Below, piece after piece: positions 40,588 through 63,511 of a stretch of DNA of 64,000 bases. The stretch comes from Candidatus Roizmanbacteria bacterium (GTDB taxonomy: Bacteria; Patescibacteriota; Microgenomatia; UBA1406; GWC2-37-13), in the NCBI GenBank assembly GCA_016214055.1, contig JACRPE010000002.1, positions 1-64,000 on the forward strand, written 5' to 3'. The translations under genes and the position numbers were made by a program. How positions within the stretch are numbered: the first letter of the stretch is position 1; every line of letters starts with the position of its first letter. The notes under the pieces are model-generated. The model was given only the letters and a program-made list of their open reading frames with translations, searched no databases and was not told the DNA's origin.

Positions 40588-40657
40588 TAATCCCATGGGG
40601 ATTCACCAAATAAATTTACGCCGTAAATTTTTCGGTGTAAACGAACCGAAGATTTAA
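40588..40657 (-). pseudogene. 3' part of a broken tRNA-Glu copy, interrupted by a 38-nt palindrome
   Basis: Minus strand AATCTTCGGTTC-[38 nt, 40605-40642]-GAATCCCCATGGGATTA versus intact GAATCTGGGGTTC-GAATCCCCATGGGATCA. Confidence 0.65.
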
Positions 40658-40675
40658 ACCCTTAGAGATAGCTTC

Positions 40676-40706
40676 AAAAAAAGCTCGGATGAACCGAGCT
40701 GTTTTT
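40676..40706 (-). terminator. Rho-independent terminator downstream of tRNA-Glu
   Basis: AGCTCGG-ATGAA-CCGAGCT stem with A tract (T tract on minus) and GTTTTT on the other side. Confidence 0.75.
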
Positions 40707-40711
40707 CGAAG

Positions 40712-40785
40712 TGATCCCATGGGGATTCGAACCCCAGATTCTCTGGCTGAAAACCAGATGTCCTAGGCCACTAGACGATGGGACC
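40712..40785 (-). tRNA. tRNA-Glu(UUC)
   Basis: GGTCCCATCGTCTAGTGGCCTAGGACATCTGGTTTTCAGCCAGAGAATCTGGGGTTCGAATCCCCATGGGATCA; loop TTTTCAG. Confidence 0.95.
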
Positions 40786-40799
40786 AGTAAATAGCTTTT

Positions 40800-41021
40800 C
40801 TATAGCCTTGCGCTTTTCCAAGCCTTGATTTGTTTCTCGCGTATCCTAGCCTCAGATAAAGTTTTAATTTCCTCACTATATTTTAACATCCAAGGCCCTT
40901 TATTTCTTGTGAACTTGCTCATTCCCAAATTATGCTCGTGAAGTCTTCTAACAATATCTTTAGTACATCCGATATAATACTTACCGGTTGTAATTGATTT
41001 AATAATGTAGATATAAAACAT
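40800..41021 (-). CDS. GIY-YIG nuclease-domain protein
   Basis: MFYIYIIKSITTGKYYIGCTKDIVRRLHEHN. Confidence 0.85.
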   Translation of the reverse strand: MFYIYIIKSITTGKYYIGCTKDIVRRLHEHNLGMSKFTRNKGPWMLKYSEEIKTLSEARIREKQIKAWKSARL

Positions 41022-41117
41022 TCAAGATGTGGCATCACTAGTCCCGATTCCAGGATTAAAATCTGGAATCGTGGATAGTCGATCCACGACGAAGTCGGGA
41101 TCGGTAACGATGGGACC
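41022..41117 (-). pseudogene. 5' part of a broken tRNA-Glu copy, interrupted by a 65-nt palindromic insertion
   Basis: Minus strand GGTCCCATCGT-[65 nt, 41042-41106]-CTAGTGATGCCACATCTTG versus intact GGTCCCATCGT-CTAGTGGCCTAGGACATCTGG. Confidence 0.65.
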
Positions 41118-41125
41118 TTCGGCTG

Positions 41126-41782
41126 TTAGCCTTTTTCCAACTTATTCATTATATCATCTAAAATTCTTTTTGCTGCATCACGACCACCTAAACCAAACGC
41201 GAGCCCTCCGGCTATGGCAATGGCCGCGACAATTCCTGTAAAGAAAATTCTAATAAGATCTTGCGCAACCCCAAGCTGATTCATCATGATGAGAACGGTG
41301 AAAAAGATGATGGTTGATTTGGCAAAAGCACTCAGAGTAATTGCCGAGGTGGCGCCTGAGGACTTGATGCTGTGCTTCACCAGATCAGCGGTAAGATTCG
41401 AGACGATGATACCTACAAAGCCGATTATGACAGCAACTATAACATTCGGAAGATAAAACAAAAATTGATTGAGAACTGCAGTAGCTCGAGATAGCCCCCA
41501 TGTCTCAAGTGTGGGGATAAGGAAAAGGATGATGATGGTCCATTTAACCAGCTCAGTCAAAACTTCCTGCCATATCCGCACTTCTTTTTGAGTTACCAAG
41601 CCTGTCTTGTTCAAAAGGGCATCAACCCGAAAAAAGGCAAGTAAGGTAAAGAGAATTTTTTTAAAAAGAGCGGCGACTAAAAATCCAACTACTAATATGA
41701 CAAGGCCACCAAAAAATATAGGTAAGTAATTAATAAAGTTGCTCCAGAAACGGGTTAGCACATCGTTGGTTGATGCAAACAT
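41126..41782 (-). CDS. Multi-TM protein resembling MscS/CmpX-like TM-helix proteins
   Basis: Hydrophobic helices and C-terminal GLAFGLGGRDAAKRILD; ORF start at 41803 lies inside a repeat so MFASTNDVL may be the true start. Confidence 0.7.
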   Translation of the reverse strand: MFASTNDVLTRFWSNFINYLPIFFGGLVILVVGFLVAALFKKILFTLLAFFRVDALLNKTGLVTQKEVRIWQEVLTELVKWTIIILFLIPTLETWGLSRATAVLNQFLFYLPNVIVAVIIGFVGIIVSNLTADLVKHSIKSSGATSAITLSAFAKSTIIFFTVLIMMNQLGVAQDLIRIFFTGIVAAIAIAGGLAFGLGGRDAAKRILDDIMNKLEKG

Positions 41783-63268: not shown

Positions 63269-63279
63269 AATCCACAAAG

Positions 63280-63326
63280 AGCCCGCTGTCAGATTTGAAC
63301 CTGATCCCGCTCTGCGGGACTGTTTA
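63280..63326 (-). pseudogene. 3' part of a broken tRNA-Thr copy with a 15-nt hairpin insertion
   Basis: Minus TAAACAG-[TCCCGCAGAGCGGGA]-TCAGGTTCAAATCTGACAGCGGGCT. Confidence 0.75.
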
Positions 63327-63344
63327 TCCATGTAAATTAAGTTG

Positions 63345-63416
63345 AGCCTGCTGTCAGATTTGAACTGACGACCTGCTGTTTACAAAACAGCTGCTCTACC
63401 ACTGAGCTAAGCAGGC
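63345..63416 (-). tRNA. tRNA-Thr(UGU)
   Basis: GCCTGCTTAGCTCAGTGGTAGAGCAGCTGTTTTGTAAACAGCAGGTCGTCAGTTCAAATCTGACAGCAGGCT. Confidence 0.95.
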
Positions 63417-63441
63417 CATTCAACTTAATTTACAGGACGGG

Positions 63442-63511
63442 CAAAACAGCTGCTCTTTTACACCGTAAATTTAATCTGAGAAATTTACGGTGACCACTGA
63501 GCTATCCAGGC
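63442..63511 (-). pseudogene. 5' part of a broken tRNA-Thr copy with a 36-nt palindrome insertion
   Basis: Minus GCCTGGATAGCTCAGTGGT-[36 nt, 63457-63492]-AGAGCAGCTGTTTTG. Confidence 0.8.

Follow-up and report, generated by a model that had tools for sequence, protein, structure and literature searches.

A GIY-YIG nuclease gene and an intact tRNA-Glu inside a broken tRNA-Glu point to a candidate family of tRNA-replacing elements in Patescibacteriota

How does a tRNA-Glu gene come to lie in pieces on either side of a small nuclease gene and a second, intact tRNA-Glu? The question is raised by a locus of a Candidatus Roizmanbacteria bacterium (the source genome; assembly GCA_016214055.1), found in a stretch of 64,000 nucleotides at the start of contig JACRPE010000002.1 that we refer to as the window. 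To our knowledge, essential single-copy tRNA genes are seldom open to invaders other than self-splicing introns and elements whose integrase restores the 3′ end. Here we describe the locus and compare it with those of 37 relatives and, subsequently, of 287 genomes drawn from the phylum (our labels for genomes begin with G and for loci with L). We hold it probable that the window's locus is one copy of a widespread, intron-less, homing-like family of elements that disrupt tRNA genes while providing a substitute tRNA. Comparison with uninterrupted relatives demonstrates, at the level of sequence, invasion and replacement; DNA cleavage, homing, repair-mediated copying and co-transcription are steps that we infer.

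The tRNA-Glu locus and its empty counterparts

All parts of the locus are on the minus strand and are given in that reading direction. The MS-channel gene ends at 41126, and the 5′ end of the old tRNA-Glu follows at 41117. Its first piece (GGTCCCATCGT, 41107–41117) occupies the position at which, in relatives, an uninterrupted tRNA begins after the MS-channel gene. A 65-nt insert in the D-arm (41042–41106) then leads to what remains of the degenerate D-arm together with the 5′ strand of the anticodon stem (CTAGTGATGCCACATCTTG, 41023–41041), which abuts a GIY-YIG nuclease ORF of 73 amino acids with an ATG start (40800–41021). The ORF matches PF01541 (E = 1.2e-17), consists of the catalytic domain only and keeps the catalytic residues. 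The intact replacement tRNA-Glu(UUC) comes next (40711–40785; called by ARAGORN, 57.5 bits with Rfam), with a terminator-like hairpin and T-run 3′ of it (near 40676–40700). The old tRNA resumes with the 5′ part of its T-arm (AATCTTCGGTTC, 40643–40654, assigned by sequence and alignment), a 38-nt insert in the T-loop (40605–40642) and, finally, the 3′ part of the T-arm with the 3′ strand of the acceptor stem (GAATCCCCATGGGATTA, 40588–40604), a 94% direct repeat of the 3′ end of the intact tRNA. Each part that the sequence-only reading had placed between 40588 and 41117 is present at its coordinates. Of the two palindromes that it described, the 38-nt one folds as a single hairpin, whereas the 65-nt one is in fact two adjacent hairpins (−31 kcal/mol).

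Once the inserts are removed, the outer pieces align with the intact tRNA-Glu with a score of 35.5, whereas none of 500 shuffles exceeded 12.5. An Rfam scan of the pieces as they stand gives no tRNA signal (E ≤ 10), and ARAGORN calls no tRNA in the rejoined halves; most of the anticodon arm is gone from the outer copy, which is why no tRNA finder recognizes it. The putative tRNA identity of the outer pieces rests on sequence, synteny and many parallel loci rather than on a covariance-model hit. No integrase gene is present, and the GIY-YIG ORF stands alone between the remnants. Could the outer halves instead be a working split or intron-containing tRNA, joined after transcription? Breaks at loci of this kind often fall in the anticodon loop, where tRNA introns usually lie. 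We give the idea practically no credence, because no intron or ribozyme family of Rfam matches around the ORF, either at the gathering threshold or at E ≤ 10, because the outer D- and T-arms are broken by hairpins, and because an intact gene for the same tRNA accompanies them.

The sequence-only reading had proposed a search of relatives for an uninterrupted gene, and such a tRNA-Glu lies at the orthologous site, directly behind the MS-channel gene, in four of them (G012, G021, G017 and G027). The same site is occupied in both the window and G020, by nucleases from different branches of the tree. These empty and occupied sites together indicate that the outer 5′ piece marks the original start of the tRNA. 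Occupied and empty alleles of one site, by which homing elements are recognized, are found for tRNA-Glu and also for tRNA-Thr, which is whole in G002. The preserved parts of the inner and outer tRNA-Glu are identical and so give no sign of a foreign allele at the Glu locus itself, a point against the homing-like reading.

Small GIY-YIG genes beside tRNAs

Across 19 aligned tRNA-linked proteins, Y5, Y16, G18, R26, H30 and E62 are invariant, as expected of the GIY-YIG superfamily. The closest solved structures are UPF0213, SLX1 and the catalytic domain of I-TevI, the best PDB match being UPF0213 protein BH0048 (E = 7.9e-16), and the predicted fold is one that the tRNA-linked nuclease has in common with stand-alone proteins of the UPF0213/YhbQ type. 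The tRNA-linked proteins, at 73–90 amino acids, are bare catalytic domains without an additional DNA-binding region, a feature that we count against the homing-like reading. The ratio dN/dS is 0.11 (0.106/0.968) for a pair of orthologues at tRNA-Gln and 0.09 (0.088/0.971) for a pair at tRNA-Phe; values near 0.1 signify purifying selection and hence an enzyme that is kept functional. A tree of 49 proteins, short and poorly resolved, requires 22 changes of tRNA isotype compared with 31.0 when labels are shuffled (none of 200 shuffles was as low), and the nuclease lineages follow tRNA identity loosely, with switches. A phage origin was considered and rejected: the nuclease has just five phage matches, all of them weak, and the loci studied all come from bacterial genome collections.

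A Pfam search of the source genome finds nine GIY-YIG loci, one of which looks UvrC-like and lies in a 429-aa frame. For six of the other eight ORFs, a tRNA lies no more than 300 nt away (Lys, Phe, Glu, Val, Ser and Gln). At most about 3.4% of the genome is that close to any of its 46 tRNA hits, and the chance of at least six of eight is around 4e-8. GIY-YIG genes of the type seen at the tRNA-Glu locus are common among the 37 relatives and the 287 genomes of the phylum. Of 75 sampled phylum-wide matches, 45 are within 300 nt of a tRNA, a fraction that is biased upward because the sample was ranked by a profile built from tRNA-linked members; the unbiased figure is the six of eight from the source genome. 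The nearest tRNA of these 45 is always on the same strand as the ORF, downstream of it in 25 cases and upstream in 20. In G002, a genome in one contig, five of nine inspected GIY-YIG loci are tRNA-linked, and many of the top PF01541 matches in the relatives have no tRNA nearby. The ORF at tRNA-Gln is one that G002 has in common with G000. Where the ORF is upstream, the distance from the end of the GIY-YIG domain to the intact tRNA is mostly 22–64 nt, on the same strand, and the stop codon of the ORF frequently falls within the tRNA, for example in TAGCTCAG or GTCTAA.

At 49 loci with the ORF upstream, the first 40 nt of the tRNA were compared with the 220 nt before the ORF, with all tRNAs of other isotypes as controls. 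The locus's own tRNA beats every non-cognate control at 31 of the 49, where about one would be expected by chance, and the survey of small GIY-YIG ORFs near tRNAs that had been suggested from sequence alone is thereby strongly positive. Most of these loci keep a 5′ remnant only, and a 3′ remnant beyond the intact tRNA is found at about a fifth (9/49). A recognizable remnant is missing at 18, which we also count against the homing-like reading. Examples of the layout involve some 14 kinds of tRNA (Glu, Gln, Val, His, Lys, Ser, Tyr, Cys, Phe, Leu, Pro, Thr, Asn and Met). Within the source genome, a scan of the flanks of 34 tRNAs finds a 5′ half upstream and/or a 3′ half downstream for nine, namely Glu, Thr(UGU), Pro(CGG), Pro(GGG), Phe, Val(CAC), Gln(UUG), Thr(CGU) and Lys(UUU); halves placed the other way round are rare and weak. 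Many loci (Thr, both Pro, Cys, His and Lys) are broken in or close to the anticodon loop, others (Ser L169 and Tyr L166) in the T-loop. The earlier idea of a family that interrupts and restores tRNAs is upheld by the survey, the remnants and the empty sites, but its supposed targeting of the anticodon applies only in part.

Small GIY-YIG genes are common in the phylum, and their neighbourhood with tRNAs might be put down to chance. Strand, the 22–64-nt distance, cognate remnants and isotype clustering are, however, far from random, and ORFs end inside the tRNA at many loci. The controls refute this explanation, which we consider extremely improbable.

The layout recurs beyond the phylum, in named genomes searched with a single protein as the query. 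In the Bacteroidota, the tRNA-Arg of Owenweeksia is arranged as a 5′ piece, a palindrome, the ORF, the intact tRNA and a terminator-like hairpin, which recurs in the 3′ piece that follows. Related forms are found in Mucilaginibacter (including the strain Mucilaginibacter sp. X4EP1), Chitinophagales and Flavobacteriales. Gracilibacteria have a tRNA-Met case of the layout.

Small GIY-YIG ORFs also occur in other settings. In a second kind, the ORF is 3′ of a tRNA (L120, L122, L124, L130, L151 and L160) or of a tmRNA (L135, L139 and L149); a recurrent structured stretch runs from the CCA end, CCACGAAGT..ACTTCATGG, followed by a GTGCCC..GGGGC hairpin, and a tRNA remnant is mostly absent. We tried and rejected the assignment of downstream-ORF loci to the nested type, and keep them apart from it, because a cognate 3′ piece follows the ORF at no more than 3 of 26. 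In a third kind, the ORF lies at gene starts beside CCCGTTAGAGA or CCCCGTAGAGAATTT repeats (L127, L128, L142, L145, L158 and L165), which in L127 and L128 are inverted on either side of it.

Alleles at nested tRNAs without an ORF

The sequence-only reading had likened the Glu locus to a tRNA-Thr near 63.3 kb, and the layout there is real, with an inner tRNA-Thr nested between outer halves, again on the minus strand. The old 5′ half (63439–63511) comprises the acceptor strand and D-arm (63494–63511), a hairpin insert (63456–63493) and part of the anticodon stem ending in TTTTG (63439–63455). The inner, intact tRNA-Thr(UGU), called by ARAGORN (63344–63416), is an allele unlike the outer halves by comparison with relatives. 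The old 3′ half (63279–63330) starts at about TAAACAG and continues through a hairpin insert in the variable region and T-stem to the T-arm and acceptor strand, so that the outer tRNA is split between TTTTG and TAAAC. In G002, which belongs to the same genus and has the same tRNA neighbours (Leu, Thr and Arg), the tRNA-Thr is whole and begins with GCCTGGATAGCTCAG, like the window's outer half. The window's inner tRNA-Thr begins with GCCTGCTTAGCTCAG; over 61 nt it shares 98% identity with the tRNA-Thr of G001.

The same holds for tRNA-Pro(CGG) of the source genome, in which the outer halves carry the complementary ends CGGGATG and CATCCCG and match the gene of G009, G011 and G012, and the inner tRNA has CGGAGTG and CACTCCG. 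At the tRNA-Ser locus L169, outer (GGAGAGG..CCTCTCC) and inner (GGTGGGA..TCCCACC) ends differ in the same manner as in Thr and Pro. ARAGORN calls a tRNA in the rejoined Pro(CGG) halves, a weak result in that three bases of the anticodon loop were filled in from the inner copy, and makes no call for the rejoined Pro(GGG) halves. As far as alleles can tell, Thr, Pro(CGG) and Ser L169 demonstrate that an old resident was split and that a different allele took over, and the ORF-less loci Thr and Pro(CGG) provide the strongest evidence on tRNA replacement.

Two features of these loci count against the homing-like reading. Three nested loci of the source genome (Thr and both Pro) have no ORF, and in Thr and Pro(CGG) the inner copy has the same anticodon arm as the outer one, so that only a reading of the acceptor stem or the flank would account for an inner tRNA that is immune.

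Perfect inverted repeats directly flank the inner tRNAs, of 15 bp in Thr (63331–63345 and 63420–63434 in the window) and of 12 bp in Pro(CGG) (L032, about 1489–1590). They could insulate the tRNA or be the ends of an element.

The main rival to replacement is segmental amplification of the kind attributed to SegB, whereby a nuclease cuts tRNA genes and unequal recombination yields tandem tRNA–ORF–tRNA arrangements, the broken copies being surplus duplicates in decay and no replacement having been inserted. SegB is reported (PMC13096335) to cut inside tRNA genes and to drive tandem tRNA–segB repeats, and G006 has a tandem array that would suit such a process (L079, G006:C2:1–4700), with a spacing of 357 bp and a unit of a tRNA-Ser 5′ piece, a hairpin and a GIY-YIG ORF; its copy number is uncertain because the array runs to the contig end. 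In L085 and L072, moreover, the downstream broken copy is almost full length. Yet the left remnant is 5′ only and the right remnant 3′ only at Glu, both Pro, Thr(UGU) and L169, the two adding up to one tRNA; Thr, Pro and Ser L169 have an inner allele that differs from the outer one, which matches relatives; and the whole outer tRNA is seen, across species, without an inner tRNA or an ORF. We regard amplification as unlikely, though of the explanations set against replacement it deserves the most weight.

Proposed mechanism and comparison with known systems

For the homing-like reading, we propose an element made up of a minimal GIY-YIG nuclease gene and a substitute tRNA, either complete or at minimum its 5′ half. 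The nuclease would cleave the resident tRNA gene, at the anticodon loop in many cases and at the T-loop in some, and the ORF and tRNA would be copied in by repair, with the flanking tRNA halves as the homology. The old tRNA is left as split outer halves and the inner tRNA takes over, an essential gene being broken and restored in one event, as the comparison with uninterrupted relatives shows. The ORF, now just behind the old tRNA promoter, probably shares a transcript with the new tRNA, from which RNase P would free the latter. In 17 of 32 fragments a −10-like box directly precedes the outer 5′ piece; one stands 5′ of the intact tRNA in 10 of 32. This pattern fits an old promoter that may drive both ORF and tRNA; co-transcription is suggested by these boxes and by the ORF stop codons inside the tRNA. 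The dead halves would then degenerate and acquire hairpin inserts, chiefly in the D-, anticodon and T-arms. The ORF-less nested tRNAs (Thr and both Pro) may be remnants of such elements or may have moved in trans.

Hairpins are indeed located mainly in the D-, anticodon or T-arms of the dead copies, and the longest inverted repeats have a mean arm of 7.2 nt in remnants compared with 5.0 in the adjoining flank. They may reflect decay, insulation of the new tRNA or removal of a cut site. A single mobile palindrome of fixed sequence was rejected as the sole cause, as hairpin sequences vary between loci. Palindromes like TTTACRGTGTAAA (up to two mismatches) number 14 in the window, where 4.5 are expected, including 40615–40641 and 63457–63469, and they interrupt the tRNA-Glu and tRNA-Thr remnants alike.

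The hairpins in the remnants also bear on another explanation, namely that a structure-specific nuclease of the SLX1/UPF0213 type acts on hairpins or cruciforms and that the tRNA layout is a by-product of palindrome mobility. UPF0213 and SLX1 are among the closest solved structures, and related small GIY-YIG genes are flanked by palindromes. Because cognate 5′ remnants, fixed order and strand, carried tRNAs and isotype clustering would go unaccounted for, we find this explanation improbable. The palindrome-flanked genes include L003 and L004 of the source genome, which lie between inverted GTCATTCC..GGAATCC palindromes and not between tRNAs, and many of L195–L229 (Proteobacteria, Nitrospirae, Zixibacteria and others), where inverted GTCATTCCTGCG..GGAATCC-type palindromes likewise enclose a small GIY-YIG gene; both groups call to mind REP-type repeats equipped with their own nuclease.

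Returning to replacement by homing-like elements, we lean, by a modest measure, towards a wider claim: that these may be selfish elements of about 0.3 kb, present throughout the phylum and carrying a whole replacement tRNA as cargo, by which host tRNA genes have repeatedly been swapped for horizontally acquired alleles on which the host then depends. If tRNA genes are invaded by an element that carries a spare, the parasite becomes indispensable at once. Such a family would account for the broken tRNA pieces that litter the tRNA loci of these small genomes, would be a route to the replacement of tRNA alleles through horizontal transfer and, with its many natural pairs of empty and occupied sites, would offer a testing ground for homing on RNA genes. 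A published description of a nuclease ORF with a nested tRNA was not found in the open-licence literature.

Integrative elements that enter tRNA genes rebuild the tRNA that they enter and leave a piece of tRNA behind, by means of an integrase and with replacement of the 3′ end. The elements described here likewise rebuild the tRNA and leave a piece, but as a unit of about 0.3 kb without an integrase, and their remnant is mainly the 5′ half. Group I introns with endonucleases are also found in tRNA genes, one example being the enzyme of the tRNA-fMet anticodon region (Bonocora and Shub 2001, as cited in PMC3984707). They share with the present loci an endonuclease gene at the tRNA anticodon region; here there is no intron, and the tRNA is restored by a second copy of the gene and not by splicing. 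In CPR bacteria, rRNA genes carry insertions with homing endonucleases, among which the GIY-YIG inserts match no known intron type (PMC11270868). Endonuclease genes thus lie inside essential RNA genes of the same bacterial group in both cases, although the targets there are rRNA genes and tRNA is unmentioned in the text of that paper.

SegB of phages T4 and T6 is a free-standing GIY-YIG nuclease encoded among tRNA genes, within which it cuts, promoting repeats of tRNA and nuclease gene (PMC13096335 and PMC2988022). A free-standing GIY-YIG gene in a tRNA region is common to both; SegB, however, is phage-borne and reported as intergenic in a tRNA array, and the available portions of those accounts report no split outer tRNA with an inner replacement, whereas bare catalytic domains of 73–90 amino acids in cellular genomes are the rule here. 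Mobile ORFs of fungal mitochondria bring replacement gene ends with them, in atp6 of Allomyces and in atp6, atp9, cox2 and nad3 of Glomus: an intron-less homing-endonuclease ORF (GIY-YIG in atp9) enters an essential gene together with a substitute for the part that it severs, and the native part persists as a diverging remnant, inner and native sequences being different alleles (PMC3630166). The carried-in substitute and the native remnant are likewise seen for Thr, Pro(CGG) and Ser L169. The fungal ORFs differ in that they replace the 3′ end of mitochondrial protein genes, whereas bacterial tRNA genes are affected here, with a whole tRNA or a 5′ half replaced and with the ORF upstream of the restored gene. 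As the two systems are defined, the tRNA-replacing elements are members of neither the fungal mobile ORFs nor SegB.
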